Origin: Microbulbifer sp. YPW1
Lineage (GTDB): Bacteria; Pseudomonadota; Gammaproteobacteria; Pseudomonadales; Cellvibrionaceae
DNA: 64,000 nt
Assembly: GCF_013367775.1 (NCBI RefSeq)
Contig: NZ_CP055157.1
Coordinates: forward strand, 2,745,001-2,809,000
Reading direction: 5' to 3'
Part shown: positions 39,418 through 58,909 of the stretch, piece by piece
How positions within the stretch are numbered: the first letter of the stretch is position 1
How the letters are laid out: each line of letters starts with the position of its first letter
Notes under the pieces: generated by a model
The model's input: only the letters and a program-made list of their open reading frames with translations
Databases searched by the model: none
Told to the model about the DNA's origin: nothing
Position numbers and translations under genes: made by a program

Positions 39418-39465
39418 GCAAAGTGTTGTGGCTGTGGGGTATTGGTACGGTATTTATCGGGGCGA

Positions 39466-40986: not shown

Positions 40987-41030
40987 GGGAAAACCTCCTC
41001 TCCGTTACAGAAACCGGATGGGTGTCTGAA

Positions 41031-43729: not shown

Positions 43730-44118
43730 CGTCCCCCCCCTCCCAAGAAATATCTTCCTCATACCCTCCGCCAAGTGCTTTTTCTCGGACGCAAATTCCC
43801 TCGGTACGCTTTGTATAAAAAATGCCCGCCTGTAAATCGACGTTCGCAGACCATGCCAATGCATAAAAGCCTGTACTACTAAATGTGCCTGGTGCGCCCA
43901 CTAGCCGATCGGCATTATTGTTAACAATTTACTGTTGACACTGAAGGCGCGGAGTTGCAGGATGGCTCCAGTAGCCATGTGACTGTGCCTATAGCATTTA
44001 CATGACTGCGTGGACGGTTCAAGTCAATAACGAATAAAGGCTCGGAACTCGGTCGCCTATCATCGATGGGTAGGCGTGTGGTTCGAGCGTCGAGCCTCCA
44101 GATGGAGAGAGAGCATCC
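43730..44118. other. Regulatory region before TonB receptor 1
   Basis: No gene seen. It contains the palindrome and promoter described at 43917-43963, a GCCTATC...GATGG leader element (44055-44069) also present before receptor 2, and the ribosome site GGAGAGAGAG before the ATG. Confidence 0.55.
43917..43963 (+). promoter_or_regulatory. Palindromic operator plus promoter, TonB receptor 1 operon
   Basis: ATTGTTAACAAT (43917-43928) is a perfect 12-bp palindrome. Seven bases after its TTGTTAACAA core comes TTGACA (43935-43940), a perfect -35 hexamer. CAGGAT 17 bases further is a poor -10, as expected for a regulated promoter. The same palindrome and spacing occur before receptor 2 at 53035. Confidence 0.65.
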
Positions 44119-46899
44119 ATGCCTATTAATAGCAAGCGCTTTACCCTGAGCGCCTTGTCCGCCGCTGTGATTTCCGCAGCTTCTGTTGGCGTTTATGCCC
44201 AGGAAGCAGGTAGCAGCACGCTGGAAGAAATCACGGTGACCGGCATCCGCCAGTCGCTGACAAATGCAATGGACATCAAGCGCGATTCCGCCGGTGTTGT
44301 GGACGCGATTTCTGCCGAAGATATCGGCAAGTTTCCCGATACCAATTTGGCGGAATCCCTGCAGCGCATTACCGGTGTATCCATTGACCGCAGCAATAAC
44401 GAAGGTAATAAGGTTACCGTGCGCGGCTTTGGCCCCAACTTTAACCTGGTGACCTTGAATGGTCGCCAGATGCCAAACTCCTCCGCGCTGCAGTCCGAGG
44501 GTATTACCCGTAGCTTCAAGTTCGCTGAAATTTCCGCGGAAAGTGTAAGCGGTGTTGAGGTGTACAAAACCGGTAAAGCCGATGTGTATTCCGGGGGTAT
44601 TGGTTCCACCATCAACATCAAGACTGCACGTCCATTCGATCACGACGGCTTTGTTGCCAGCGCGAGTGTGAAGGGCGTGATGGATACCAGCGTTGAGAAG
44701 GGCGATACCGTAACCCCAGAAATCGCCAGTATGGTGAGCAGCACTTTCTTCGATGGTAAATTCGGTGTACTGGTCGCGGTGTCTCACGCAGAGCGTGACA
44801 GCCGCAGCGAGTCAGTAAACACCCAAGCCTGGGTTCCGAACTACGGTGTAGCGGATACCTCAGCCATCGATCGCTCAAAAAACCCGGAAGGTACCTACTG
44901 GGCGCCTTGGACTTTTGACGTGGACGCTTCTGACCATCAGCGCGAGCGCCAGAATGGACAGCTGGTATTGCAATTCGCGCCTGTGGATAACGTGACTGCA
45001 ACGCTGGACTATACCGCTTCCCGCTATGATGAGCAGGTCTCCATGAACCGCACCAGCGTGTGGTTTGACACCTCTGCTGGTGTTACTGACAGCAACGGTA
45101 CTGTCATCAATCCCAGCGTACAAAATGATGAGCTGAATTTTTGGGCCTGGAATTACCAGTTTGTTACTGAAAACGATTCCGTGGGCCTGAATGTAGAGTG
45201 GGCTGCAACCGACTCTCTGAGCTTCGGCTTGGATGTACACGACTCGACTTCCCACTCTCAGCCAGGTGGTATTCCCGCAGAAACCATTGCCAATACCAGG
45301 AACCCGGGCAAGTTGGTGAATGTTGAAGCGGACTTTTCTAGCGGCAGTGGCCTGCCCGGAATCAGCTTTGACGATTCCGCTCTCGCAGGTGGTGCTTTTG
45401 CTCCGGAAAATATTGTTTCCGATCTATTCCAGGAGCGTGGTCTCGAAATCGAGAACAGCATCCAGCAAATTCAGCTTGATGGAACCTGGGAAAACCTGGA
45501 TGACGGTGCACTTAAAACCATCAAGTTCGGTATCGCCAGTACCGATTATCGGGTAGATGCCTATGACAGTCAGTCTTTCGCATTCGTAGATCTGGGCGAT
45601 CTGGCATCTTTGGGAATCGACTTCGAACAGCGAGGCGATTTCGGCGATCAGATGGGAAGTAACAGTGGCTTGTTCCCGCTACTGGCTGATTACGAAGCGT
45701 CCGACTTTATCGATGCAGTGAAGGCGAGTGGTCAGTACTTCCAGGCTACCCCGACCTTTGACAAGGTTACTGAAGAGACGCTGGCTGCCTTCGTCACTGC
45801 GGACTTTGAAACCGAGTTCAATGGCTATCCAGTTCGGCTGAACGCGGGCGTGCGTTTTGAGGATACCGAAGTGACCGGTACTTCCATTCAAAACGGCATC
45901 CTCGGATTGAGCTTCTGGCACGACGAGGAGCTGCGTGAAATCAATGACGATACGCCCAGTGCCGATACACTTGACGGGGATTACACGCGCTTCCTACCGA
46001 ACCTGGATGCGAGCATCAGTCTGACCGAAGAACTGGTGGCGCGTGCATCTTTCAGTCGTACCCTGAGTCGCGCCGATATCTCTGCGATGTTCCCGTCTAC
46101 TTCTCTGGATGTGTCCCGTCCGGGTGGTCCGTTCAACGCCTCCCAGGGTAATCCGGGTTTGTTGCCGATTACCTCTGATAACTTTGACCTGTCGGTGGAG
46201 TACTACTACGCAGAGGGCAGCTACGCATCTGTAGGTTACTTCAAGAAATACGTTGAGAACTTCATCGGTGCGACCACCGAAGAGCGTGTGATCTACGACG
46301 TAAATGGCAACCCGATCACCGACCCGAGTATCAACCCGCGTCCGGGATGCCCGGATTCTACCGGTAGTAACCCGGCGTGTTTCGGTAATGCCAATGACCC
46401 GGTTATAACCTGGAATGTGGGTACTCCCGGTAACCAGGAGAATGCGGAAGTCTACGGTTGGGAATTTGCCGTTCAGCACATGTTTGGGGAGACCGGGTTT
46501 GGTGCAATCTTCAATGCGACGTTGGTAGATGGCGACGTAGAATACGATGTCTACAGCAGTGACAATGTCTTTGCGCTGACGGGTATGAGTGACTCTGCGA
46601 ACCTGATTGGCTTCTATGAGAAAGATGCCTTCCAAGCTCGCCTCGCCTACAACTGGCGTGATGACTTTCTGCTGGCAACCCGCCAATCGCAGATTGGTGG
46701 ACAGCCGGTGTTCAATGAGGCCTATGGTCAGTGGGACTTGAACGCGAGTTATGATGTGACCGAGGATGTGTCAGTATTTGTTGAAGGCCTTAACCTCACC
46801 GAAGAAACCATCCGTCGCCACGGGCGCTTCTCCAACCAGTTGGTAAGCGCACAGCAGTACGGTGCACGTTATAACATTGGTGTTCGCGCTCGCTTCTAA
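44119..46899 (+). CDS. TonB-dependent receptor 1 (halogenase-associated, glycan-type)
   Basis: 926-residue outer-membrane receptor. Signal peptide ending SVGVYAQ (about 1-29), plug (about 35-190: LEEITVTGIRQSL, IGKFPDTNLAESLQRITGVSIDR, VTVRGFGPNFNLVTLNGR) and barrel ending in NIGVRARF. This plug type is common in marine gammaproteobacterial receptors linked to carbohydrate use. GGAGAGAGAG precedes the ATG. A strong hairpin 30 bases after the stop separates it from the halogenase gene, which then follows with SapC. The promoter carries the TTGTTAACAA palindrome shared with receptor 2. Substrate unknown. Confidence 0.93.
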   Translation: MPINSKRFTLSALSAAVISAASVGVYAQEAGSSTLEEITVTGIRQSLTNAMDIKRDSAGVVDAISAEDIGKFPDTNLAESLQRITGVSIDRSNNEGNKVTVRGFGPNFNLVTLNGRQMPNSSALQSEGITRSFKFAEISAESVSGVEVYKTGKADVYSGGIGSTINIKTARPFDHDGFVASASVKGVMDTSVEKGDTVTPEIASMVSSTFFDGKFGVLVAVSHAERDSRSESVNTQAWVPNYGVADTSAIDRSKNPEGTYWAPWTFDVDASDHQRERQNGQLVLQFAPVDNVTATLDYTASRYDEQVSMNRTSVWFDTSAGVTDSNGTVINPSVQNDELNFWAWNYQFVTENDSVGLNVEWAATDSLSFGLDVHDSTSHSQPGGIPAETIANTRNPGKLVNVEADFSSGSGLPGISFDDSALAGGAFAPENIVSDLFQERGLEIENSIQQIQLDGTWENLDDGALKTIKFGIASTDYRVDAYDSQSFAFVDLGDLASLGIDFEQRGDFGDQMGSNSGLFPLLADYEASDFIDAVKASGQYFQATPTFDKVTEETLAAFVTADFETEFNGYPVRLNAGVRFEDTEVTGTSIQNGILGLSFWHDEELREINDDTPSADTLDGDYTRFLPNLDASISLTEELVARASFSRTLSRADISAMFPSTSLDVSRPGGPFNASQGNPGLLPITSDNFDLSVEYYYAEGSYASVGYFKKYVENFIGATTEERVIYDVNGNPITDPSINPRPGCPDSTGSNPACFGNANDPVITWNVGTPGNQENAEVYGWEFAVQHMFGETGFGAIFNATLVDGDVEYDVYSSDNVFALTGMSDSANLIGFYEKDAFQARLAYNWRDDFLLATRQSQIGGQPVFNEAYGQWDLNASYDVTEDVSVFVEGLNLTEETIRRHGRFSNQLVSAQQYGARYNIGVRARF

Positions 46900-46929
46900 T
46901 GCGGGGCAGAGTTGCCTAGTAGTGCCAGG

Positions 46930-46963
46930 GAAGGCTGCCACATTTGTGGCAGCCTTCTTTGTT
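46930..46963 (+). terminator. Hairpin terminator/attenuator between receptor 1 and halogenase 1
   Basis: GAAGGCTGCCACA (46930-46942) and TGTGGCAGCCTTC (46945-46957) pair perfectly over 13 bp, followed by TTTGTTTG. The halogenase starts 40 bases later with no clear promoter of its own, so partial readthrough is likely. Confidence 0.8.
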
Positions 46964-46997
46964 TGCGTAACCTTAAAAATATAAGAGAAGGTCCGAT

Positions 46998-48551
46998 ATG
47001 TCTGATCCAATAAGATCTGTCGTGATTCTTGGTGGCGGCACTGCGGGGTGGATTACCGCCGGTACCCTGGCTGCACGCTTCAAAAAAGACCACGCGCAAC
47101 CGGTCTCTGTGACACTGGTCGAATCTCCCAGTGTCCCCACCATCGGCGTTGGTGAAGGCACTTGGCCTACCATGCGGAGTACCCTGAAGAAGATGGGAGT
47201 CAGGGAAACTGACTTTATCCGGGAGTGTAATGTCGGCTTTAAACAGGGTGCCAAGTTTGCGCGCTGGACCACGGGTGCTGAAGACGATTTTTACTACCAT
47301 CCACTGGTGCTGCCAGAGGGGTTCCAGTCTCATAATCTCGCCCCATATTGGCTTGCTGGTGGCAGGCAGAGCTCCTTTTCCAGCGCCGTATGTCCTCAGG
47401 AATCTTTGTGCGAGCATAACCTTGCTCCCAAGCTGATAGGTACGCCGGAATATTCTGCGGTAGCCAACTATGCCTACCATCTGGATGCAGGTAAGTTTTC
47501 CGGTTTCCTGCAAAGGCACTGTACCGAATACCTGGGAGTGCACCATATTCTCGCGGATGTTACCGGTATCGTTGAGTCAGAAAATGGAGATATCGCCAAG
47601 CTGCAAACCGATACCGCGGGCGATATCACTGGCGACCTGTTTATCGATTGCAGTGGCTTCCGATCGCGTATCTTGGGCGATCATTATCAGATACCTTTCC
47701 GATCCTGTAAGGACGTCCTTTTTATAGACTCAGCACTGGCAGTACAGGTGCCATATGCCAGTGAAGATAGCCCCATTGCCACACATACCATATCTACCGC
47801 ACAGACGGCTGGTTGGGTGTGGGATATTGGCTTGCAGAACCGTCGTGGGGTAGGGCACGTATTTTCTTCTGCGCACACCGATGAAAGTGGCGCTTTCCGT
47901 GAACTTGCTGCTTACCTGAAGCTGAGCGAGTCCGAACTCGATAAGCTCGGGGTACGCAAGATCCCTATTGAGCCAGGACATCGAGAAAAGTTCTGGCACC
48001 GTAACTGCGTGGCTATTGGCTTGTCCGCAGGTTTTCTTGAACCACTAGAAGCCTCTGCGCTGGTACTCGTGGAAATCTCCGCGAACATGATTGCGGAGCA
48101 GTTTCCCGCAAGTCGTGCGGCGATGGATGTGATAGCGCGTCGTTTCAACGAGACTTTTCGCTACCGTTGGGATCGAATTATCGACTTCCTCAAGCTGCAT
48201 TATGTTCTGACCAAACGTACCGATAGCGAGTTCTGGATCGATAACTGTGACCCCGCTACCGTTCCCGAAAGTCTTAAGGAACTACTGACATTGTGGCGAT
48301 ACCAGCCTCCATGGCACGAGGACTTTGATCGAGCGGTGGAAGTTTTCCCTGCGGCAAGTTATCAATATGTCCTGTACGGTATGGGGTTTGATACAAGCGC
48401 AAGTGCATTCGGTTTGTCCTCGTCGCATCATGAACAGGCTCAGCAGCTGTTGCGGCAAAAGCAGAATGCCACACAACAGATGCTGGCGGGCCTCGAGAAA
48501 CACCGGAATTTGATCAACAAGATTTGCCAGTACGGTCTACAGAGAGTTTGA
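46998..48551 (+). CDS. Flavin-dependent halogenase family protein 1 (tryptophan halogenase fold)
   Basis: 517-residue cytosolic FADH2-dependent enzyme of the tryptophan-halogenase family. GGGTAGW (12-18) binds flavin, GVGEGTWPT follows, and the catalytic lysine equivalent is K82 (NVGFKQGAKFARW). The glutamate of GLSAGFLEPLEASAL is E351. The diagnostic WxWxIP motif is altered to WVWDIG (273-278), and the residues after the glutamate (ASA) differ from the STG chloride site of PrnA as I recall it. Chlorination or bromination is therefore uncertain. AGAAGG precedes the ATG. It lies downstream of a TonB receptor and upstream of SapC. No flavin reductase gene is in the window. Confidence 0.85.
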   Translation: MSDPIRSVVILGGGTAGWITAGTLAARFKKDHAQPVSVTLVESPSVPTIGVGEGTWPTMRSTLKKMGVRETDFIRECNVGFKQGAKFARWTTGAEDDFYYHPLVLPEGFQSHNLAPYWLAGGRQSSFSSAVCPQESLCEHNLAPKLIGTPEYSAVANYAYHLDAGKFSGFLQRHCTEYLGVHHILADVTGIVESENGDIAKLQTDTAGDITGDLFIDCSGFRSRILGDHYQIPFRSCKDVLFIDSALAVQVPYASEDSPIATHTISTAQTAGWVWDIGLQNRRGVGHVFSSAHTDESGAFRELAAYLKLSESELDKLGVRKIPIEPGHREKFWHRNCVAIGLSAGFLEPLEASALVLVEISANMIAEQFPASRAAMDVIARRFNETFRYRWDRIIDFLKLHYVLTKRTDSEFWIDNCDPATVPESLKELLTLWRYQPPWHEDFDRAVEVFPAASYQYVLYGMGFDTSASAFGLSSSHHEQAQQLLRQKQNATQQMLAGLEKHRNLINKICQYGLQRV

Positions 48552-48564
48552 GTGAGAGAAATGT

Positions 48565-49290
48565 ATGAGTAACACCGTCGCTTTGAATAACGAAAGTCAC
48601 CGCAATTTAAAAGTCATTACCCGGCGCGGTGCGGAATATGGTGAAGGCACTCACCTCGTGCCCGTGGTGGCCAATGAGCTGCGCAACCTGATGCTCGAAT
48701 ATCCTGTATGTATTACCAAAGATCCGAACACAGGACAGTTTTCCTTGTGTGCCTTGCTGGGGTTCGAGCCCGGAGAGAACCTTTATCTACAAGGTGACAG
48801 CTGGGATGCCCAGTATATTCCCATGCATATTCGCCGACAGCCCTTCATGGTCGGATACCGCAACCCGGAGGCTGCTGTCGGCGAAGAACGGGGCGCGGTC
48901 ATCACTCTGGATCTGGATAGCAAGCGTGTGACTGAAGAGGGTGCTGACGGTGAGCGCCTGTTCGACGATCAGGGCAACAATACACCGTTTATGCAGCAAG
49001 TCAGTGATCTGCTGGGCCAGTTAATGGTTGGTATGGAGTCCACTACCGCATTCCTCTCCGCTCTGGCGGATAACGACCTGATTGAGCCCGCACATATCAA
49101 CGTACAGTTTGCCAGTGGTGAGCATAAACGTTATGAAGGGCTGTATACCGTGAATGAGGATAAACTGCAGAAGCTCGATGCGGACAAGCTGGTGTATATG
49201 CATCAACATGGGTATTTGCAGGCTGCCTACTGGCTGGGGGCATCCATGGGGCAGATACGAAAGCTGATTCAGAAGAAAAATCAGAAGTAA
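48565..49290 (+). CDS. SapC family protein
   Basis: 241-residue protein of the SapC family (named from an S-layer-associated gene in Campylobacter; function in proteobacteria unclear). Recognisable parts are HLVPVVANELRNLMLEYPVCITKDPNTGQF, LLGFEPGENLYL, YIPMHIRRQPFMVGY, and the C-terminal GLYTVNEDKLQKLDADKLVYMHQHGYLQAAYWLGASMGQI. No signal peptide is seen. It starts 13 bases after the halogenase stop and is the last gene of the receptor 1 module. In related bacteria SapC genes commonly accompany TonB receptor-halogenase pairs, so a role in that uptake system is inferred. Confidence 0.88.
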   Translation: MSNTVALNNESHRNLKVITRRGAEYGEGTHLVPVVANELRNLMLEYPVCITKDPNTGQFSLCALLGFEPGENLYLQGDSWDAQYIPMHIRRQPFMVGYRNPEAAVGEERGAVITLDLDSKRVTEEGADGERLFDDQGNNTPFMQQVSDLLGQLMVGMESTTAFLSALADNDLIEPAHINVQFASGEHKRYEGLYTVNEDKLQKLDADKLVYMHQHGYLQAAYWLGASMGQIRKLIQKKNQK

Positions 49291-49291
49291 T

Positions 49292-49319
49292 AAAAAGCGC
49301 GGCTATGGCCGCGCTTTTT
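49292..49319. terminator. Bidirectional terminator between sapC and phoD-like genes
   Basis: AAAAAGCGCGGC (49292-49303) pairs with GCCGCGCTTTTT (49308-49319) around a TATG loop. The two convergent genes end 1 and 7 bases away. Confidence 0.93.
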
Positions 49320-49325
49320 ATTGGA

Positions 49326-51722
49326 TCAACTTTGTTGCAGTGATTCGATGGGGTGCACCTGAGGCCAGCCCGTAAATTGCCGATCGCGCTGCGGGTCGGC
49401 GTCCCAGGGCCAGCATTCTAAACGGTAGTGCCCCGCTGCGTGATCCACTACAGCGATTCCGTATCCCTCGCTTTTAAGTTCGCGGTCGGAGACAAACTTG
49501 CCCCAGCTGGTATTGTCATCACTGAAGTCTGCATGGGTGATTTTGGGGTTGGCCGTGGCCAGAACCCGCATATTGTTGCCAAAGGGGTCGGTGAAATTGC
49601 CGGTATTGGGGTCGTCCCCATATTGGTTTTCCAGCTTCCCAAAACCCTCAAACCAACGTTGCCAGAAGGCGGCAGAGGCCGGTCCCGAGAAAAACAGTGC
49701 TCCGCTGGCTTGCTCCTGATCCACCGGGAAGTCACCGCTGTACTGGCGCGCCACAAGGCCCAGGTGCTGGTCGCCTGCGAGTACCAGTGCTTTGGCATCC
49801 TCTACCAATTTCACTGCTCGGGTACGACCGTCAGGCGGATAACAATTGGCGTCGTAGTCGATCAGGCCATTACCTTCCTCGTCGGTTTGCGGCGAGCCCC
49901 AGATGGAGGCGGTAAGGCAAATCTTCGGTAACCCCGGGTCCATCTCTGCCCAGTCCCGCAGGAACTGCTCCTGCCGGCGCCCCAGCAGTTCTCCTTTCAC
50001 CGTCAACCGGTTTGCCTCGTAATCTGGTGCTGACTTGAATTTGCGGTCCTCTACCATCGCAAAGCTGGTGCCGCCGTATACGAAATGCGCATAGGTGACG
50101 GGTATACCGTGTTGGATGGGCGTGGGGTCGTATGCATCGGGGGTATGGCTACTCTGGATGCGGTACACCATTTTCACCAGGTCGATGTCGTGCTTGAATC
50201 CTCCGTCTTCTTCGCGGGGACCTCCGGTTGCATCACCTTTATTCCCCCAAAGGTTGCCCTGGAGAACATCGTGGTCATCCACGAGCACGATGGCTGGACG
50301 GTTGCGTACAGAGTCACGAAAAGTCCAGTACCACAGGTACCAGCGATACAGGGTATCCAGCTTGGCTTGTGGGGTATCCCGCCCATAACGTGTAGGAAAG
50401 GTTTCGTAGTACTGGTCGCCGGCAAATACGTACAGATCCGGCTGATGGCTGTCACAGTGCGTGACCAGTTTCGTGTGCGGGAAGAAAATATTGTCTTCGG
50501 TATAGCGGCCGAGAACGCGCTCTTCCGGGATGTGATTTTTGAACTCCGTTTCATCCAGGCTTTTCGCGGTGGGAATGATGCAGGAGTAGAGGGCGATCTT
50601 TAGTGGCGACTGATTGCCCGGGTCTCGGTGGATAGTCCCTTCATATAGCGATTGCCCGGTTCCCGGGTCTACGATCCGGTACTGGTGATCCCTCTGCGCA
50701 TCCCAGCCGACGATGCGAAACGCCGCTACATAACCATCTCCAATGGGAGCATCTGCACCGGTTACCCAGGTTTTGTTGTTTTCATTGCGATACTCCAGGC
50801 GTGCGGCAGGAAGCGCTGTGGTGTCGATCGGCATAAACTGGGCCGATAGCTTCAGGACGGGCTCTTCGGGTGCGCAGTTCAGGCTGTGCATGCAGCCCAT
50901 CACCTGTCCCAGTCCGTGTTCCGGATGAATGTCGATTTTCTCCCCGCCACTTTCCACCGCAGAGAACCACCAGCGCGCGCCATCTTCATCGCTATTTGGT
51001 GACGAAACCAGCGAGATACCACCTCGCAGTATCTCGGCCGGTACGTCGTTATAGACCGCAAAGCCAAACTCCTTTCCGCTGTTTATGTCACTGGCGATCA
51101 GGCGTACATCAAAGCGCCCTTTGTCGATCGGGTCGATATGGCAGTCCAGTTGTATTTCTCTGTCACCAATCTGGTCAATACCTACGCTGCCTTCACGCTC
51201 GATCTTGGTGAAAGCGAGTGTATTCTCTGGGCTGGAAAAGTCCCTGAAGCTCAGCTCGCCCTCGGTGTTCAGTAGTGCCATAAACCCGCCATTTTGGCCA
51301 CTGGAGCGCTGTGCGAGTGCGGCGCCGCGGTACTCGAGCTTTCCTGCGCCGACACCCAGCAGGAATCCACAGAAACCTGTGCTACCGGGAGTGAGGAGCC
51401 CCACGCGTGCCCGGATACGCGCTGGTTTATGCGCGTTATTGAGTGTCCGTGTGAGCAGCGCTGCGGTACGCACTTCAAAACTCTTACCACCCTGTAAGCA
51501 CTCAAGACGTCCTTGGTTGCTCTGCCAGTCCTGGAGCCGGTTACCCCAGAAGGCGGGACCCAGCCAGTGCTGTGGCTTGCCCTTAGAAATTGCCTCAACC
51601 GGTGCGGTATCCACGAGCTTGGGGCGAGCGGCGGCCATCGCCGATGCGAGGGAGGGGCTGAGTGCCCCACCCAGTAGTCCTGCTGCGCCCGTACCGGCTT
51701 TCAGAAAGTTGCGTCTTTTCAT
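49326..51722 (-). CDS. PhoD-like phosphatase/phosphodiesterase with N-terminal beta-sandwich region, Tat-exported
   Basis: 798-residue periplasmic metallophosphoesterase. A Tat signal is clear (MKRRNFLKAGTGAAGLLGG...ASAMA). Residues about 50-270 are beta-rich and resemble a LamG/concanavalin-type sandwich. The PhoD catalytic region follows (about 370-740): FAGDQYYETFPTRYG, VLVDDHDVLQGNLWG, KICLTASIWGSPQTD and VLAGDQHLGLVARQ supply metal ligands. PhoD enzymes release phosphate from mono- or diesters. The extra N-terminal region could bind a polymer substrate. It lies 68 bases after the sugar-kinase gene on the same strand. AGG nine bases before the ATG supports the start. Confidence 0.86.
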   Translation of the reverse strand: MKRRNFLKAGTGAAGLLGGALSPSLASAMAAARPKLVDTAPVEAISKGKPQHWLGPAFWGNRLQDWQSNQGRLECLQGGKSFEVRTAALLTRTLNNAHKPARIRARVGLLTPGSTGFCGFLLGVGAGKLEYRGAALAQRSSGQNGGFMALLNTEGELSFRDFSSPENTLAFTKIEREGSVGIDQIGDREIQLDCHIDPIDKGRFDVRLIASDINSGKEFGFAVYNDVPAEILRGGISLVSSPNSDEDGARWWFSAVESGGEKIDIHPEHGLGQVMGCMHSLNCAPEEPVLKLSAQFMPIDTTALPAARLEYRNENNKTWVTGADAPIGDGYVAAFRIVGWDAQRDHQYRIVDPGTGQSLYEGTIHRDPGNQSPLKIALYSCIIPTAKSLDETEFKNHIPEERVLGRYTEDNIFFPHTKLVTHCDSHQPDLYVFAGDQYYETFPTRYGRDTPQAKLDTLYRWYLWYWTFRDSVRNRPAIVLVDDHDVLQGNLWGNKGDATGGPREEDGGFKHDIDLVKMVYRIQSSHTPDAYDPTPIQHGIPVTYAHFVYGGTSFAMVEDRKFKSAPDYEANRLTVKGELLGRRQEQFLRDWAEMDPGLPKICLTASIWGSPQTDEEGNGLIDYDANCYPPDGRTRAVKLVEDAKALVLAGDQHLGLVARQYSGDFPVDQEQASGALFFSGPASAAFWQRWFEGFGKLENQYGDDPNTGNFTDPFGNNMRVLATANPKITHADFSDDNTSWGKFVSDRELKSEGYGIAVVDHAAGHYRLECWPWDADPQRDRQFTGWPQVHPIESLQQS

Positions 51723-51790
51723 TATTTTTACCTGCTGTATTGCAAATTCATCATCGACTGTATTGGGAGCCCGACATTGGCGAGGCAGTA

Positions 51791-52747
51791 TTACTCCTCC
51801 AGTAGGGCGGCAAATCGCCCTCTCTCTACCAGAGCCCCCCGGTGTTGGATGACCACGCCCGCCACTTTCGCGGCTCTGGCGATTGCCTCGCGGGGCCGTA
51901 GGCCCCGGCTGCGGAATGCGAGATAGCTACCATTGAACGAATCACCGGCGGCAGTCGTGTCGACTACCCGCTCGATTGGTGAGACGGGCTCGAGAAATCG
52001 TTCCTCTGGGCCGCGGTAATAGACGCCGTTGGGACCATCTTTGATGACAAGCTCTTCAATATTGAACTGCGCCAGTAGGTCGCAGGCCGCGGTAAAGTCC
52101 TTGACGCCGTAAAGTGCTGTCAGGTCCTCAATGCCAGGTAGAGCCAGGTCTGCACTCGTAAACGCTCGCGCATATTCGGCGCGGGTGTGGTCTGGGGTGG
52201 GCCATAGTTTGGGACGATAGTTGGGGTCAAATATTATCCGTGTGCCTTGGTCGCGCAGGTTGGAGACAAGCTCCCAGAATGCCGGTCGCGTTTCCGGCGC
52301 CAGCACGGCCAGTGAAATGCCACTAAAAAAAAACATATCCGGGCGAGGGGCCAGGCCACAGGGCGAATAGGCTCCATCGCAGGCCGATTGCGTGCCCTCT
52401 CGAAACAGCAGCATGACTTCCCGGGCGGCGGACTCGGATCGCCAGTAACTGAAGCTGCGCTCGCCGTTCTTGTCAGTTGTTACCGAATACAGACCCAGTT
52501 GCCGGGAGGGATGACGAAACACAAGGGATGTATCGATCCGCTCCTCTTCGAGAGCCTTTATAAGCCCCTCGCTGGCGCTATCGTGCCCCACCGCTGTCAT
52601 CAGCCTGACTCTGTCAGCTTGACTGGCTAGTCTCTTGAAGTACACGGCCACACTGTGGACGTCTCCTGCGAATGACTGGCGAAACAGTCCCGGTTCCTGC
52701 TGGCTCAGCTCAACCATGCTTTCGCCGAGAATCACCAGATCTGTCAT
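51791..52747 (-). CDS. kdgK: PfkB family sugar kinase, probable 2-dehydro-3-deoxygluconokinase
   Basis: 318-residue cytosolic ribokinase-fold kinase. ILGESMVELSQ near the start, FAGDVHSVAVYFKRL, DPNYRPKLW, and the catalytic loop VDTTAAGDSFNGSYLA with its aspartate base match KDG kinases. Product 2-keto-3-deoxy-6-phosphogluconate enters the Entner-Doudoroff pathway, the route for alginate, pectin and possibly anhydrogalactose breakdown. I start at 52747 (MTDLVILGESM), with AAGGTG upstream, not at the in-frame ATG 54 bases earlier. It is divergent from the receptor 2 operon and co-directional with the PhoD-like gene. Confidence 0.85.
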   Translation of the reverse strand: MTDLVILGESMVELSQQEPGLFRQSFAGDVHSVAVYFKRLASQADRVRLMTAVGHDSASEGLIKALEEERIDTSLVFRHPSRQLGLYSVTTDKNGERSFSYWRSESAAREVMLLFREGTQSACDGAYSPCGLAPRPDMFFFSGISLAVLAPETRPAFWELVSNLRDQGTRIIFDPNYRPKLWPTPDHTRAEYARAFTSADLALPGIEDLTALYGVKDFTAACDLLAQFNIEELVIKDGPNGVYYRGPEERFLEPVSPIERVVDTTAAGDSFNGSYLAFRSRGLRPREAIARAAKVAGVVIQHRGALVERGRFAALLEE

Positions 52748-53211
52748 GTCGGTCACCTTTCCATATTGCCCATTGTGGGGGATATGCGAGAATGCTGTCA
52801 CAAAAATCAGCTAAGACAGTTAGTGCTGCTTTGTCTTAGGTGCTCCACGGGAAGATAAAGTCCCGCCTTTACTACCCGTTGGTGACCTTGTAAATTGTCA
52901 ACAACCGGTCGTGAGACATTCTGCGGCCCACGTAGAAATTCATTAAAAAACAATAGATTGCGAGATCGCGGCTAAGACATCTACTGGTCGTGCGGCCGCT
53001 GCCCCATTCAGGTTCATTAAACAACGGATTCATTTTGTTAACAATAAACAGTTGACATAATTTCCCGGGTTGAAGGATCATTGGCCTATCGATGGAAGAA
53101 CCCCCAATAAATCAACAATCGGGATTCCTTCGAGTCTAGGGGCGGCGCCACTAGCGGTATCAGTGAATGCCGAATTGATAATAAAAATGCGATCCGATGG
53201 AGAGAGTGAGC
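52748..53211. other. Divergent regulatory region between kdgK and TonB receptor 2
   Basis: No gene seen in about 460 bases. It contains the palindrome and TTGACA element at 53035-53057, a GCCTATCGATGG leader element (53084-53095) matching the one before receptor 1, and the ribosome site GGAGAG before the receptor ATG. It probably also holds the kdgK promoter. Confidence 0.55.
53035..53078 (+). promoter_or_regulatory. Palindromic operator plus promoter, TonB receptor 2 operon
   Basis: TTGTTAACAA (53035-53044), seven bases, then TTGACA (53052-53057): the same core and spacing as before receptor 1. AAGGAT (53073-53078) is in the -10 region but with a short 15-base spacer. Surrounding sequence differs, so the conserved parts are likely functional. 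Confidence 0.65.
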
Positions 53212-56200
53212 ATGTCTACGTCCACTGTACGTAATCGCTTCCGTATGTCTGCACTGTCAGTTGCCGTGCTGTCCGTTTGTAGCGGCCACGCAATGGCACA
53301 GGAAGAAGAAAAACCAGACGAGAGCCAATACCAGGCGCTTGAAGAAATTCAGGTAACCGGTATTCGCGCCAGTATTGAAAAGTCCATTGATGACAAACGC
53401 TACGGCGGCAACATCAAGGACACCATCAATGCCGAAGACATCGGCAAGACCACTGACCAGAACATCGCTGAGGCCCTGTCCCGCGTGACCGGTGTTTCCA
53501 TGCAAACTGCTGATGGTGAAGGCTCCACCATCACCGTGCGTGGCGCCAACGCACAGCAGAACAACATCAGCCTGAATGGTGTGCAGCTGGGTTCTACCGG
53601 ATTCAGCCAGGCGGTAGATTTGTCTGCTTACTCGGCAGATATTCTTTCCAAGATCGAGGTAGTGAAAACCCCAAGTGCGGATCACGATGAGGGTTCGCTG
53701 GGTGCGAACATCAATCTGGTATCTGCCAAGCCGTTAGAAGTCACCGAAGGACTGAATATCAATGGGCAAGGGCGCTACAACGACCTCTCTGACAAAGAAG
53801 ATTACAAGGCTTCTGCAACCTATACCGGTAAATTCTTCGACGATACTTTCGGTGTCATCGTTACCGCATTTGATGAGACCAACTCTGTTCGTAAAGATCA
53901 GTTCTCTCAGGATCAATGGGTGTCGCGCACATCTTCGCGGGCTACAGATCAAAACGGTAACGTTGTTAATGATGTTTCCGGTCTGGTTCCGTATAACACT
54001 CGTATGCAACTGCATGAGAATGATCGCGATCGCCGGGGCGTCAACTTGGGCCTTCAGTGGCAAGCTACGGACGATACAGAAGTCAATGCAAACCTGAGCT
54101 GGAACAAACAGGATGTTGACTCCACTATGCACGAAGCTAAGGCACGTGCGGGCGACCTGTATACCTACCAAAATATGGTCGAGGGTGAAGACTATCTCTG
54201 GCTCGGGCAGCCGGCAACGTGGACCGACCCACAGGAAGAGTGGCATACCTACAATTCAGATACCCGTACGTTTACCAAGTATCTGAACCGTAACTCCGGC
54301 GGCGACCTTACTCAGCAGACCAACAAGTTCTCGAATGAAAACAAGATTGCATCTTTGGATGTGAGCCACGCATTTACCGATACGGTGACCGTCAATGCCG
54401 GGCTGAATTACTCTAAAGCCGAACAGATTCCAGAACAGTCACTTTATGTGAACCTGCAGAACTATCGCCGCGTGAATGCTTGGCTTGTTCGACAGGCTAC
54501 ACCGGAAGAGATCGAGCCCGTAGGCTACGATTGCAGCTCCGGCAAATGTAATATCGTAGCGGGTACAGGTCTGGTTGACTACGGCACGATACTGCATCCG
54601 GAACAGGGTGCGCTGTGGGATAACCTGGGTACCACCATGTTTAACCCGGATGACCTGAGTGCCCAGCACCTCGCCTTCTTGGCCCGTACTGTTCGCGCAG
54701 TCGAAGACACTCAGCAGGCCGCATACTTTGATGTGGATTGGGATGTGGATTTTGCCGGTGTGCATACCCTCGAATTTGGTGCCAAAGCCACGCGTCGTGA
54801 AAAGTATGTGGATAATCAGTCCGGAACCTTCAATTCCATTGGAGAAGGGGTGACGGTTGTTGATCCGGAAACCGGGCAGCCGTTTACCATTGTTGAAGGG
54901 ATTACCGATATTGATGGATCCTTTATCGCGGACGGCAGTTTCCCTGTCGATGATTTCATGCAATCACTCGGCTATGCCGACAGTAATGTGACCGATGGCT
55001 GGACTACTGTCTCCGCAGAAAAGGCATTCGAAGTCGCACTGAATAATCCAAATGCCGAATTCGTTCCGGACGATACTGAAACGCGTTCCGCTGATTTGGA
55101 CACCCAGGCGATCTACGTCAAGGCAGATTTTTCGTTCTTGGATGAGAAACTGTCCGGTGATGTAGGTTTACGCTACGTAAACACCACCGTTGATACCACA
55201 GGCTATTCCGGTGTGAATTTCCACAGCAGCACCGGTAACCTGGGCAAGGTACTGGATGTGTTTACGCTGCAAGAGCTGCGCAATTCCTCCAACCCTGCAT
55301 GTGCCCCGATCCTGGATTACGATCCACTGTTGGTTCCAGATGATCCCGCAACTCCCGACTTCAATGAAAGTAACTACGGCGACCCAGACAGCCAAAATGA
55401 GCTGCGTTGGTCTCGTGTGGACGGTTTGGGCTGGGATACCAAGGGCACGCTGGATAAGTCGGACGACACCCCGATTGCCAGCCAGGGCGCTTGCTACGAT
55501 ATGGCGGCAACGCAAGGAAACATGAATGAGTGGCTCCTGTGGCGCTATGCCGACGTGTCGACCGAATCCAACTATATCTACGGCGAGCGAGATGCAAATG
55601 GCAACCCTGTAACAGTCGAAGACCGCAGTCGCCGTTCGTTTGCTGTAGAAGGCGATCATGAATACAACGTTCTGCTCCCGAGTCTGAACCTTAACTACCT
55701 GTTCAATGATGAAATGATCGGTCGACTGGCGGTTTCCAAGACCATGTCCCGTCCGCAGATCGATTCACTGCGTCCGGGCTTCAAAGTGCGTGAGACGGTA
55801 TGGACTGACGAAAACGGCACTGGTAACGCGATCACCTTGTTCAACACCAAACTGGATCCTTTGGAGTCCAAAAACCTGGATCTCGCATTTGAGTGGTATT
55901 TCTCTGCAAACGCCATGGTTGCAGCAGGTTTGTTCTACAAGGACATGACCAACTTCGAAGAGTCTCAGACCATTGTTACCTATATGGATGACCTTCGCGG
56001 GTTGGGGCTGGACGAGGGCGAGGGGCCCTACAACACTGAGGATCTGATTAAACGTGCAGATAGCCTGGAAGGCTGTATGCCACGACGCATCGAAGGTACC
56101 CAGGAGTACACAGAAGAGTGGCTGTTTTCTGACGACCTGGCAGACCTGTGTGCCAAGTTTCAGACCACCACCATTACCAACGGTAAGGGTGCAAGTATCA

Positions 56201-56745
56201 AGGGTGCCGAATTCCAGTACACCCAGTCCTATGACATGCTACCCGGTGTCTTTGCCGGCCTGGGCACATCGTTGAACTACACCTACCAGGATAGTGCTTA
56301 TGATCAGGAAGTTTCCGCGGTTGATCCAAGCGTTGTATTACCTGAGCTGCCAGTTGCCTTTACGCCGGAGCATAGCTACAACGCAACGGTATTCTGGGAA
56401 ATGAATGGCCATCAATTGCGTTTGGCGTATCAGGGTACTTCTGATCAGCTGGCGCGACGCGTGTGGGATAACGGTTCATTGTGGCAGGAAGGGCGCGGTA
56501 CACTGGACTTCTCCGCGGCTTACCAGCTGACAGACAATATATCTTTGTCCTTTAATGCGGTGAACCTGACCGATGAGAAGGTGCGTAACTACTACACTAG
56601 CCGATTCATTCAGTTACCGGATGCAAATGGCAACCTCGTTGCCTTTGATGAAGGTAATCCGCTGGATGGTGGCTACAAAGGACGTACAGCTTCAGAATAC
56701 AAAACGGGTACCTTCTACCGCTTTGGTATTCAGGCGCGCTTCTAA
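53212..56745 (+). CDS. TonB-dependent receptor 2 (large, halogenase-associated)
   Basis: 1177-residue outer-membrane receptor. Signal peptide ending SGHAMAQ (about 1-30), plug (about 40-200: LEEIQVTGIRASIEKSID, IGKTTDQNIAEALSRVTGVSMQ, ITVRGANAQQNNISLNGVQLGS, LSKIEVVKTPSADHDEGSLGANINL) and a large barrel ending in RFGIQARF. The long extracellular loops implied by the size suit a bulky substrate such as an oligosaccharide. I start at 53212 rather than 53197, because the upstream ATG is part of the ribosome-site sequence GATGGAGAG. It heads an operon with halogenase 2, GDH subunit 3, GMC oxidoreductase and ThuA, interrupted by a terminator-like hairpin. Confidence 0.93.
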   Translation: MSTSTVRNRFRMSALSVAVLSVCSGHAMAQEEEKPDESQYQALEEIQVTGIRASIEKSIDDKRYGGNIKDTINAEDIGKTTDQNIAEALSRVTGVSMQTADGEGSTITVRGANAQQNNISLNGVQLGSTGFSQAVDLSAYSADILSKIEVVKTPSADHDEGSLGANINLVSAKPLEVTEGLNINGQGRYNDLSDKEDYKASATYTGKFFDDTFGVIVTAFDETNSVRKDQFSQDQWVSRTSSRATDQNGNVVNDVSGLVPYNTRMQLHENDRDRRGVNLGLQWQATDDTEVNANLSWNKQDVDSTMHEAKARAGDLYTYQNMVEGEDYLWLGQPATWTDPQEEWHTYNSDTRTFTKYLNRNSGGDLTQQTNKFSNENKIASLDVSHAFTDTVTVNAGLNYSKAEQIPEQSLYVNLQNYRRVNAWLVRQATPEEIEPVGYDCSSGKCNIVAGTGLVDYGTILHPEQGALWDNLGTTMFNPDDLSAQHLAFLARTVRAVEDTQQAAYFDVDWDVDFAGVHTLEFGAKATRREKYVDNQSGTFNSIGEGVTVVDPETGQPFTIVEGITDIDGSFIADGSFPVDDFMQSLGYADSNVTDGWTTVSAEKAFEVALNNPNAEFVPDDTETRSADLDTQAIYVKADFSFLDEKLSGDVGLRYVNTTVDTTGYSGVNFHSSTGNLGKVLDVFTLQELRNSSNPACAPILDYDPLLVPDDPATPDFNESNYGDPDSQNELRWSRVDGLGWDTKGTLDKSDDTPIASQGACYDMAATQGNMNEWLLWRYADVSTESNYIYGERDANGNPVTVEDRSRRSFAVEGDHEYNVLLPSLNLNYLFNDEMIGRLAVSKTMSRPQIDSLRPGFKVRETVWTDENGTGNAITLFNTKLDPLESKNLDLAFEWYFSANAMVAAGLFYKDMTNFEESQTIVTYMDDLRGLGLDEGEGPYNTEDLIKRADSLEGCMPRRIEGTQEYTEEWLFSDDLADLCAKFQTTTITNGKGASIKGAEFQYTQSYDMLPGVFAGLGTSLNYTYQDSAYDQEVSAVDPSVVLPELPVAFTPEHSYNATVFWEMNGHQLRLAYQGTSDQLARRVWDNGSLWQEGRGTLDFSAAYQLTDNISLSFNAVNLTDEKVRNYYTSRFIQLPDANGNLVAFDEGNPLDGGYKGRTASEYKTGTFYRFGIQARF

Positions 56746-56780
56746 TCTCTCTCGACGTTGTTAATTTGTCATCATGATTT

Positions 56781-56810
56781 GCCGCGCCTGGAAACAGGCG
56801 CGGCTTTTTT
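56781..56810 (+). terminator. Hairpin terminator/attenuator touching the halogenase 2 start
   Basis: GCCGCGCCTG (56781-56790) pairs perfectly with CAGGCGCGGC (56795-56804) around a GAAA tetraloop, followed by six T. The halogenase ATG is at 56813, two bases beyond the T-run, so the hairpin takes up the place of a ribosome-binding site. Confidence 0.88.
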
Positions 56811-56812
56811 CT

Positions 56813-58333
56813 ATGAAAAAAAAGAAACTTATTATCGTAGGCGGTGGTACCGCAGGGTGGATGGCCGCACTCATGCTGCAAAAATCTGTCGCCGATTTCT
56901 GGGATATTGAACTGATCGAATCCAGCAAGCGTGGAATTATTGGAGTAGGGGAAGGTTCCACACCGGCTCTGAAGAACTTCTTTGATGAAGTTGACATCCC
57001 GGAAGAGTCGTGGATGCCGAGCTGTCGTGCCACGTATAAGACGGGTATCACGTTTGATCAGTGGTCGGCAAAGGCCGGATTCGAAAGTTACTTTCACCCC
57101 TTCTACACGTATTTTGATCGGGATCATGCCAAAGCATTAGTGCATCACTCACTTTTACGTCGTGCGGGAAAGGATGCACATGCGCATCCGGATATGTTTT
57201 CATATAACCACTATCTCGCCAGGAAAAGACTGTCCCCGGTCCCTCCCTACCATTTCCCTTTTGATATTCAGTATGGCTATCACTTTGATGCAGGTCTGCT
57301 GGCGCAGTTTTTGAAGAAAACTGCCGTAGAGCGTGGCGTGAACCACACCGATACACTGATTACCGATGTTCAGCTGGGCGCCGATGGTCAAATCGCAGCG
57401 GTGATCGATGAACGTGGGGAGCGCTACTGCGCGGACTGGTTTATAGACTGCTCCGGGTTTGCGGCGCTCTTGATTGATGATGCGCTGGGTATTCCCTTTA
57501 AAAGCTATGCAGATTCCTTGTGGAACGATAGTGCAGTAACACTTGCTATGCCCGCCGAGGATGAACCTGCCTGTGAGACTGTTTCGACAGCACTAAAGCA
57601 CGGCTGGGCGTGGCGTATCCCCCTGCAAAGTCGGGTGGGATATGGCTATGTATATAGCAGTCGGTATACCTCAAAGGAAGATGCAGAGGCCGAACTGCGA
57701 GAACATGCGGCTGCTGGTGCCGATGCTGAGGTCCGCCACCTTTCGATGAATGTTGGTCGACGTGAGTCTCACTGGGTGAAAAACTGTGTGGCAGTTGGCC
57801 TCTCTCAGGGCTTTATAGAGCCGTTGGAAGCTACATCGCTGGCGTTGACACAGCAGACCATAAGCCGATTTATCCATGCGTTCAAAGACGGCAATACGGG
57901 TCAGGGTTTTGTGGATATTTTCAATCGTGCGGTAAACAGGAGCTATGACGACGTCCGAGATTACATTTCCGTACATTTTCTAACGAATAGTCGCACCGAT
58001 TCGACCTACTGGATTGATAATCGTGAGAACCCCGGGCCGGTGAGCAAAGAGTTGAGGGCGGTCTTCAATTGCTGGTTCGACAGTGGTGATCTTCCGGGGT
58101 TACTAAAGCACCTGAAAATTGACGGTGCGTATAGTAATCACTCCTGGCATTACATTCTCTGTGGTATGGGTGTATTTCCTGATGCAGTGGGCCTCAATCC
58201 TCTGGTAGAAGAAGATAGAGGAAATGTTGACCTTGAGCGAATATCTGATTTCTTCAATCGATGTGCCATCAATCATGAAAGCCATAAGGAAGCACTGGAA
58301 AAGCTAGCGATTGGATCTGCTGTCAGTAATTAG
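56813..58333 (+). CDS. Flavin-dependent halogenase family protein 2 (tryptophan halogenase fold)
   Basis: 506-residue cytosolic flavoenzyme. GGGTAGWMAA near the N-terminus binds FAD, GIIGVGEGSTP follows, the catalytic lysine equivalent is K76 (CRATYKTGITFDQW), WAWRIP (265-270) is the canonical halogenase motif, and E339 lies in GLSQGFIEPLEATSL. It is therefore a better candidate for true halogenation than halogenase 1. The ATG at 56813 gives the normal MKKKKLIIVGGG start; a longer frame from 56774 runs through the terminator hairpin. Lack of a normal ribosome site and the hairpin suggest low or conditional expression. The native substrate is unknown; an indole or another electron-rich ring is typical of relatives. 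Confidence 0.87.
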   Translation: MKKKKLIIVGGGTAGWMAALMLQKSVADFWDIELIESSKRGIIGVGEGSTPALKNFFDEVDIPEESWMPSCRATYKTGITFDQWSAKAGFESYFHPFYTYFDRDHAKALVHHSLLRRAGKDAHAHPDMFSYNHYLARKRLSPVPPYHFPFDIQYGYHFDAGLLAQFLKKTAVERGVNHTDTLITDVQLGADGQIAAVIDERGERYCADWFIDCSGFAALLIDDALGIPFKSYADSLWNDSAVTLAMPAEDEPACETVSTALKHGWAWRIPLQSRVGYGYVYSSRYTSKEDAEAELREHAAAGADAEVRHLSMNVGRRESHWVKNCVAVGLSQGFIEPLEATSLALTQQTISRFIHAFKDGNTGQGFVDIFNRAVNRSYDDVRDYISVHFLTNSRTDSTYWIDNRENPGPVSKELRAVFNCWFDSGDLPGLLKHLKIDGAYSNHSWHYILCGMGVFPDAVGLNPLVEEDRGNVDLERISDFFNRCAINHESHKEALEKLAIGSAVSN

Positions 58334-58387
58334 TCGTTTGCCTTTCTGTATTTCGAACTGACGAGAATGCAAATAGTGGAGGGGTTT

Positions 58388-58909
58388 GTGGATAGAAGAA
58401 AATTTCTTTCTGAAATGGCTGTCTTTATGGGTTGTAGTGTTCTGTCACTGGATCTGAAGGCGGTTGATGCTGCGCTGTCTTTTAGTGGTCCGGCTAGCTC
58501 CGAGTCGGGGTTTCATATGGGGCTGGTGTCTCGGGTAGCGGATATTATTATTCCTGAGACAGACACCCCATCTGCCAGTCAGGCGGGAGTTCCGGGCTAT
58601 ATCAACTTCTACTTGAGTGATTTTCTATCCAAGCATAAAGCGAGCGAATTCATTAGCGGGTTGTCGGCGACTTTCGCACAGGGTGAATTTCTGTCATTTG
58701 AAGCGGCGCAACAAGTGAGGGTCGTTCAGGCACTCGATGATGCACTAAATACGGAAGCTGAAAACCCGACATATAAGAAACTCAAAGAGCTCATCGTTAT
58801 CGGCTACTACACTTCCCGAGTAGGGGCGACACAGGCTCTGCGCTATGACCCAATTCCAGGCCCCTACAAAGAAATGAAACTTGCGGAAGTCGGTCGCACC
58901 TGGCTGTAA
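58388..58909 (+). CDS. Gluconate 2-dehydrogenase subunit 3 family protein, Tat-type signal
   Basis: About 173-residue small subunit that accompanies GMC-type dehydrogenases. The N-terminus reads DRRKFLSEMAVFMGCSVLSL, a twin-arginine signal; ADIIIPETDTPSASQAGVPGYIN is the family hallmark. I prefer GTG at 58388, which has GGAGG five bases upstream, over ATG at 58367, which has none. In known pairs this subunit carries the signal peptide and the FAD subunit, lacking one, is exported with it. That matches here, since the next gene product has no signal. The usual cytochrome c subunit is absent from the window. Confidence 0.87.
   Translation: MDRRKFLSEMAVFMGCSVLSLDLKAVDAALSFSGPASSESGFHMGLVSRVADIIIPETDTPSASQAGVPGYINFYLSDFLSKHKASEFISGLSATFAQGEFLSFEAAQQVRVVQALDDALNTEAENPTYKKLKELIVIGYYTSRVGATQALRYDPIPGPYKEMKLAEVGRTWL

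Follow-up and report, generated by a model that had tools for sequence, protein, structure and literature searches.

Gene content of the locus

The stretch of Microbulbifer sp. YPW1 DNA analysed here (the window; 64,000 nucleotides, its position 1 being position 2745001 of the 4,578,595-base genome) carries two operons in which a gene for a TonB-dependent receptor is followed by one for a tryptophan-halogenase-like protein (Hal1 and Hal2, respectively). Both are preceded by the same unit, the palindrome TTGTTAACAA followed by seven bases and TTGACA, which had been reported in a preliminary description of the sequence; both copies (plus strand, 43918-43940 and 53035-53057) are exact. This work deals with the operators within these units, O1 and O2, and with a regulator of the GntR/FCD type that probably binds them.

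For analysis of the surroundings, 20 kb to the left and 80 kb to the right of the window were added, genes were called with a simple codon-bias script, and 40 proteins were scanned with Pfam. From left to right, the receptor 1, Hal1 and SapC genes are followed by the reverse-strand genes for a PhoD-like and a PfkB-family protein and by the operon of receptor 2, Hal2, gluconate-2-dehydrogenase subunit 3, GMC oxidoreductase and ThuA. Next come a CBM6 protein (1362 aa) with a module resembling beta-agarase 1, a protein with porphyranase domains (best solved relative Beta-agarase 8h97, 544 bits), two further CBM6 proteins (the one compared has Agarase 3wz1 as best solved relative, 409 bits), an MFS transporter and a beta-agarase of the 4bq2 type (B-agarase 4bq2, 891 bits). 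They are followed by a cupin, an aldehyde dehydrogenase, an enoyl-CoA-hydratase-like protein, two CoA-transferases and a solute-binding protein, with an IclR regulator; by a 2-dehydro-3-deoxy-6-phosphogalactonate aldolase (NCBIfam, above cut-off); and by a sugar porter, a short-chain dehydrogenase/reductase (SDR), a galactonate-dehydratase-like protein (NCBIfam, below cut-off) and another protein with an agarase CBM domain. An operon for 3,6-anhydro-L-galactonate cycloisomerase, a zinc alcohol dehydrogenase, a KduD-like SDR (below cut-off) and an aldehyde dehydrogenase comes next, followed by the GntR/FCD regulator, a 2-keto-3-deoxy-galactonokinase and an SMP-30 protein. The cupin, aldehyde dehydrogenase, enoyl-CoA-hydratase-like, CoA-transferase, solute-binding and IclR genes (genome 2821894-2829100) lie inside the agar locus and are without operators.

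The enolase-superfamily protein of the cycloisomerase operon has as its best solved relative 3,6-anhydro-L-galactonate cycloisomerase 5xd7 (515 bits; the next other name reaches 312). For the aldehyde dehydrogenase of the same operon, the best solved relatives bear the names betaine-aldehyde dehydrogenase (772 bits) and aldehyde dehydrogenase A (641); its operon context suggests that it may be a 3,6-anhydro-L-galactose dehydrogenase. Together, anhydro-galactose dehydrogenase and cycloisomerase yield 2-keto-3-deoxy-galactonate (KDGal), a De Ley-Doudoroff intermediate (PMC9706016; papers cited by PMC number are represented here by excerpts). Because agarases, a cycloisomerase and galactonate-type enzymes are found side by side, the region looks like an agarose locus equipped with both monosaccharide branches, for anhydro-galactose and galactose.

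Features of the receptor region, with selected genes outside it (window positions unless marked as genome positions)
Feature	Position	Strand	Remarks
Operator O1	43918..43935	+	upstream of receptor 1; TTGTTAACAA, T, NN and third half-site ACTGT; 2 mismatches to the 18-letter consensus
Probable -35 box TTGACA	43935..43940	+	receptor 1 promoter
Candidate -10 box CAGGAT	43958..43963	+	17 bases from TTGACA; weak (3/6 letters)
TonB-dependent receptor 1	44119..46899	+	926 aa; PF07715, PF00593
Hal1, tryptophan-halogenase-like flavoprotein	46998..48551	+	WVWDIG replaces WxWxIP
SapC-family protein	48565..49290	+	PF07277
PhoD-like phosphatase family protein	49326..51722	-	PF09423, 35.5 bits (cut-off 27)
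PfkB-family sugar kinase	51791..52801	-	PF00294
Third window operator TTGTTGACAATTTACAAG	52887..52904	-	86 bases upstream of the PfkB-family gene; kept upstream of PfkB in Microbulbifer relatives
Operator O2 TTGTTAACAATAAACAGT	53035..53052	+	upstream of receptor 2; 1 mismatch
Probable -35 box TTGACA	53052..53057	+	receptor 2 promoter
Candidate -10 box GATCAT	53076..53081	+	18 bases from TTGACA
TonB-dependent receptor 2	53197..56745	+	1182 aa as open reading frame; second ATG at 53212 may be the start
Hal2, tryptophan-halogenase-like	56774..58333	+	WAWRIP
Gluconate 2-dehydrogenase subunit 3 family	58367..58909	+	PF13618
GMC oxidoreductase	58931..60619	+
ThuA family protein	60632..61408	+
Large CBM6 protein, C-terminal part	61526..64000	-	full length 1362 aa; continues beyond the window
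CBM6-protein operator TTGTTAACAGTTGACAAT	genome 2810823-2810840		209 bases upstream of the predicted start
GntR/FCD (FadR-type) regulator	genome 2841066-2841674		202 aa; 32 kb right of the window
MarR gene	genome 2846280-2846771
Presumed dnaE, imuB and imuA (mutagenesis cassette)	36319-41738	-	left of the agar locus; tentatively labelled from their N-termini

The operator and its promoters

When up to three mismatches were allowed, the complete unit matched twice in the window as compared with 0.23 times in shuffles. A genome scan at the same threshold gave 16 matches against 11 for the control; O1 and O2 were the only exact ones, and the next-best match (2 mismatches) was located at genome 2829954-2829976, 32 kb to the right of O2. 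The bare palindrome TTGTTAACAA occurs six times in the genome, and all six copies fall into one 47.5-kb stretch (2788918-2836414), so that the expectation of a regulon traceable by a genome search was borne out.

Sixty stretches around orthologues of the regulator, taken from 10 Microbulbifer relatives and 14 genomes outside the genus, were searched with the proteins of strain YPW1. Conservation before the receptor genes was confirmed: TTGTTAACAA precedes the orthologues of receptor 1 and receptor 2 in relatives. It also precedes those of the MFS genes, the GH86 gene, the divergent aldolase/sugar-porter pair and the cycloisomerase operon and, in some relatives, the kinase/regulator pair. Sites were thus found before non-homologous genes, i.e. 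those for both receptors, PfkB, the CBM6 protein, agarases, two transporters, aldolase, cycloisomerase operon, kinase and regulator; 12 sites were assigned to no gene, and 99 sites entered the comparison of flanks. In the 11 Microbulbifer genomes with a regulator orthologue, 69 of 79 exact sites (hand tally) lie within 110 kb of the regulator gene on the same contig (YPW1 6/6, G064 6/7, G065 5/5, G073 10/10, G082 5/7, G086 7/8, G088 4/5, G090 8/8 within 105 kb, G091 5/5, G102 6/7, G105 7/11). In G082, the two sites not included in this number sit on short contigs, immediately upstream of the receptor 1 and receptor 2 genes. On contig C15 of G105, exact palindromes were seen at 324493 and 324590, 97 bases apart, with no known locus gene nearby as judged by tblastn.

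The palindrome is only part of the operator. The spacer of seven bases, described as different in the two copies, is not free and holds a further half-site (ACTGT at O1, ACAGT at O2) 7 bases from the ACAAT of the palindrome; at this phase at least four of the five letters of ACAAT are kept on the better side in 78 of the 99 fetched sites, which are related and not independent. The full operator is hence longer and reads TTGTNNACAAT-NN-ACAAT. Among eleven other phases tried, nine gave 0-3 of the 99 sites, phase +3 gave 15 and phase +7 gave 34, the last being the putative fourth rung of a half-site array. In distant orthologues (cycloisomerase rows of G046, G003, G006 and G005) the two central bases vary (GA, CG, AA, AT) while TTGT, ACAAT and the second ACAAT are constant. 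A further reading, less likely than not, would take the operator not as a plain FadR-type palindrome but as a row of graded ACA half-sites spaced by 7 bp: three in general, and a fourth that, in the promoters of the receptors and the aldolase, falls on the -35 hexamer and makes the -35 box the last rung. FCD/GntR dimers might then bind in an overlapping or side-by-side manner. A binding mode of this kind was not met for the FadR subfamily in the excerpts of open literature consulted.

With at most one mismatch, the extended pattern TTGTNNACAATNNACAAT is found at nine places in the genome, all of them in the locus (2797887-2841906); the positions are therefore not random. With up to two mismatches there were 26 matches, compared with 4 for the reversed control pattern. 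The 17 additional ones, each with two mismatches, comprise 13 elsewhere in the genome and 4 in the locus, namely O1, the 2810823 site when read on the reverse strand, and 2843894-2843912, which matches on both strands. The latter is a weaker double operator, TTGTAGATAGTCTACAAT (2 mismatches on both strands), between the SMP-30 gene and an alcohol dehydrogenase gene, and may add these genes to the regulon. The operator sites of the locus fall in gene gaps although 89% of the locus is coding, provided that gene 2815012-2816931, called with an over-long start, is taken to begin at its apparent signal peptide (residue 55). An enrichment of 73 versus 0.24 among 1024 palindromes was dropped as proof since the regions had partly been picked for holding sites, which makes the argument circular.

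For promoter analysis, aligned promoters were searched for the best shared -35/-10 pair; rows with less than 55% protein identity were dropped, and unaligned random windows served as a lenient null. Receptor 1 promoters have TTGACA in 11/11 rows, followed at 17 bp by CAGGAT or GATGAT (the three commonest hexamers being CAGGAT in 5, GATGAT in 4 and GAGGAT in 1 of 11). When counted from exact sites, TTGACA is at +7 in 10/11; the miss is GTTTGT in G127, whose protein (54% identity) had been dropped from the promoter scan. Receptor 2 promoters have TTGACA (11/12) or TTGACT (1/12) and, at 18 bp, GATGAT (9) or GATCAT (2 of 12); exact sites are followed by TTGACA in 12/14 cases, the others, TTGACT and ATGGAG, both belonging to G105. 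The claim of a shared regulatory palindrome abutting a probable -35 box is upheld in this form: TTGACA, kept in the promoters of both receptors, is probably their -35 box, with the operator against or on it.

As a general arrangement, the unit holds for the two receptor promoters; at other targets the operator is combined with a different hexamer or register. The aldolase promoter has TATACA (9/12), 18 bp and TATACT (11/12), TTTACA is found in 5/9 GH86 promoters, and in the sugar-porter promoter the -35 hexamer TTAACA is located inside the operator, 17 bp from a TATGAT present in 14/14 rows above 55% identity. No convincing pair was detected in the same scan for the cycloisomerase, kinase, PfkB, MFS, CBM6-protein and regulator genes. 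For the cycloisomerase operon, a promoter TTGAYG-16-TACAAT spanning the operator was considered but not retained, since its TACAAT doubles as the third half-site. As the register differs between promoters (before the -35 box in some, on it in others), occlusion of RNA polymerase would be the simplest mechanism.

A GCCTATC/GATGG element had also been proposed for the leaders of the two receptor genes. The strings do exist at both places (GCCTATCATCGATGG at 44055-44069, GCCTATCGATGG at 53084-53095) but are not common to orthologous leaders. Among 11 receptor 1 leaders, ATCGATGG is present in 2 (YPW1 and its sister G082) and GCCTATC in 1; among 13 receptor 2 leaders, ATCGATGG is present in 10/11 from Microbulbifer and 0/2 others, and GCCTATC in 1. 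Lacking conservation, the pair was ruled out as a regulatory element. The 5' leader of receptor 2 (53058-53197) is strikingly conserved in Microbulbifer and possibly structured; no Rfam family reached the gathering score within window 43800-53300.

The proposal of a regulon of receptor-halogenase operons as such, or of a halogenation regulon, was rejected on two grounds. The operators are shared with agarases and anhydro-galactose genes. Further, WxWxIP is the hallmark motif of flavin-dependent tryptophan halogenases; Hal2 has WAWRIP in 6/6 rows, and Hal1 has WxWDIG at this place in 16/16 rows and thus lacks the motif. It is possible that Hal1 is a flavoprotein with a different function, in the service of galactan uptake.

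A candidate regulator

According to the preliminary description no candidate regulator is present in the window. A candidate was found outside it, the GntR/FCD gene that follows the cycloisomerase operon. Its product has an N-terminal GntR winged helix (PF00392, 64 bits, cut-off 27) and an FCD effector domain (PF07729, 66.2 bits, cut-off 24.3), which is all-helical in an AlphaFold model (pLDDT 81.6, pTM 0.69). Foldseek searches with this model gave GntR-family regulators as best matches (best E 3e-7), the superposition being loose (TM about 0.4-0.6). The helix-turn-helix segment RFGVSRGP is invariant in 25 orthologues. D134, H138 and H178 are invariant in 8 orthologues, and the position of the last His is occupied by Asn200; here we take the metal site of the FCD pocket to consist of one Asp and three His, and the assignment to these residues is likewise presumed. 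All 20 NCBIfam matches of the protein scored below their cut-offs, the best being phnR_burk with 101 of 271.5 bits.

Close orthologues (60-97% identity) were found in 28 of 143 other genomes of the family, the other matches listed being 24-35% identical. In an even draw of 368 other genomes of the class no orthologue was detected at E<=1e-45. A scan of genome contigs gave 9 loci, two of which are paralogues with 26-30% identity.

The extended pattern (at most one mismatch) co-occurs with the regulator gene. In the 29 genomes with an orthologue the mean number of matches was 9.76 (range 5-17; reversed-pattern control 0.86), compared with 1.37 (maximum 6; control 1.02) in the 115 without; across these 144 family genomes the difference has a p value of 2e-17 if genomes are taken as independent. 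Inside Microbulbifer, genomes with the orthologue have 9-13 matches and those without 0-4. Four genomes without it have 5, 5, 5 and 6 matches, their controls being 5, 2, 4 and 4. In the orthologue-bearing genomes that were not used for deriving the pattern (G002, G008, G048 and G057), 6, 5, 12 and 5 matches were counted. The exact 10-mer behaves similarly in Microbulbifer: it occurs 5-11 times in the 11 genomes with the orthologue (reversed control, mean 2.09), and with a mean of 1.97 (control 3.84) in the 37 genomes without.

The GntR protein was singled out because no genome without it shows operator matches clearly above control, and because the operator is of the type of its subfamily, a site (at most one mismatch to the 10-mer) lies before its own gene in 13/25 genomes, and its helix-turn-helix segment is invariant. 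Operators of the FadR subfamily follow the rule TKGT/ACMA with 2-3 nt between GT and AC (PMC4494728, excerpt). TTGT-TA-ACAA conforms to it with 2 nt, consistent with binding by this protein. The missing regulator is thus probably the GntR/FCD protein.

Regulatory model, alternatives and related systems

In the model favoured here, O1 and O2 would belong to a regulon for agarose catabolism with about ten operators. The regulator dimer would sit on the TTGT/ACAA palindrome of TTGTNNACAATNNACAAT and would probably touch the extra ACAAT as well. In the absence of substrate, the bound protein would cover or abut the -35 region and repress transcription. Upon agar breakdown, a sugar acid inside the cell, for which 3,6-anhydro-L-galactonate and 2-keto-3-deoxy-galactonate are the most likely candidates, would bind to the FCD domain and release the protein, whereby receptors, agarases, inner-membrane transporters and both pathway branches (anhydro-galactose and galactose) would be switched on. 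Judged from sequence and genome comparison, we regard it as likely that the FadR-type protein binds O1 and O2 as a sugar-acid-released repressor of agarose catabolism and that the receptor-'halogenase' operons form the uptake arm.

Several observations weigh against this assignment. Co-occurrence at the genome level alone cannot tell the regulator from other agar genes. The extended pattern was derived from 25 of the 29 genomes in which it was later counted, and a site with a third half-site on both sides is counted twice; the 5 matches of G008 represent 3 places (two read on both strands), all within 330 bases of the regulator gene. In genomes from outside Microbulbifer, the number of exact 10-mers does not tell whether the regulator is present (means 12.3 with and 9.8 without it, p 0.21), and it was rejected as a family-wide marker. 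A site before the regulator gene was absent at one mismatch or less from 12/25 genomes and, in G018, G046 and G122, even at two. The promoter data and the distribution of the IclR gene include further such points, which are given below with the alternatives that they favour.

The same regulator on the same operator could be an activator which binds just upstream of the -35 hexamer and recruits RNA polymerase to receptor promoters with poor -10 boxes. The -10 boxes of the receptor promoters are indeed poor, and the distance of 7 bp between operator and -35 hexamer, constant in the receptor 1, receptor 2, aldolase and some GH86 promoters, is one that an activator would want as well. Activation is disfavoured by the sugar-porter promoter, with its -35 hexamer inside the operator, though its TATGAT is absent from four more distant rows (G018, G019, G020 and G028; 45-46% identity), and by the fact that FadR-type regulators are mostly repressors. 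On balance, activation is unlikely.

Alternatively, another regulator might bind the palindrome, above all the IclR protein of the locus (genome 2828309-2829100), with the GntR protein controlling something else. IclR orthologues occur in 24/144 genomes, all among the 29 with GntR orthologue and operators. They were not found (E<=1e-40) in five of these 29, G088, G091, G112, G006 and G008, which have 10, 12, 7, 11 and 5 operator matches, and in YPW1 the IclR gene and the adjoining CoA-transferase genes have no operator at two mismatches or less. The motif type fits FadR-type proteins (PMC4494728), and the sites upstream of the GntR gene also speak against IclR, so that we consider this alternative improbable. 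Chance resemblance of two AT-rich promoters, which might be suspected from the window alone as 3/100 shuffles also gave two matches at up to three mismatches, is refuted by the genome- and family-scale counts and by conservation at orthologous receptors, and has next to no credibility.

The proposed FadR-type repressor resembles DgoR, the D-galactonate repressor of Escherichia coli, in being a sugar-acid regulator of the GntR/FadR type encoded beside galactonate-type catabolic genes. The DgoR operator is likewise an AT-rich TTGT...ACAA inverted repeat over the promoter, with two close inverted repeats (PMC12288454). DgoR sites have 3 nt between GT and AC (PMC4494728) whereas those described here have 2, and the regulon here would comprise a whole agar locus including receptors and agarases. 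By its domains the protein is classed as a member of the FCD/GntR group and, by its predicted operator spacing, not as DgoR. The FadR-subfamily regulons with 2-nt spacing, GntR and UxuR, share domain make-up and a TKGT-N2-ACMA operator (PMC4494728); they differ in target pathway, and the extra ACAAT half-site is a distinction of the sites described here.

GntR genes also lie beside polysaccharide catabolism genes in alginate loci of related marine bacteria, Saccharophagus degradans (AlgR) and Microbulbifer sp. HZ11, where the substrate is alginate, not agar, and regulation was proposed (PMC3124978, PMC11678492). The carrageenan regulon of Zobellia galactanivorans is a further case of pathway-specific control of red-algal galactan use, with anhydro-galactose dehydrogenase, cycloisomerase and TonB-dependent uptake; its regulator CgrA is, unlike the protein considered here, a positive regulator of the AraC family, and the substrate carrageenan contains D-anhydro-galactose (PMC5698469). 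In Bacteroides uniformis the regulator linked to the agarose locus is a hybrid two-component sensor (HTCS), not a cytoplasmic GntR protein (PMC5849685). DagR of Streptomyces coelicolor, of the LacI family, was claimed to repress agarolytic genes in a paper retracted for fabricated data (retraction notice PMC9178413). None of the papers listed by searches of the open PMC library described an operator, or a regulator of the GntR family, for genes of agarose or anhydro-galactose use. The regulon is apparently undescribed, with a repressor apparently of the ordinary kind.

Agar breakdown in marine Gammaproteobacteria is strongly agar-induced: in Saccharophagus, the transcript of agarase Aga16B rises 280-fold with agar (PMC2386152), and Microbulbifer sp. 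HZ11 degrades agar (PMC11678492). In the open literature searched, neither a regulator nor an operator was found for this response, and the present analysis offers for it a named candidate regulator, a precise operator, a list of targets and a hypothesis on the inducer. With it, the receptor-'halogenase' operons would shift from guesses on halogenated products to the uptake of algal galactan.

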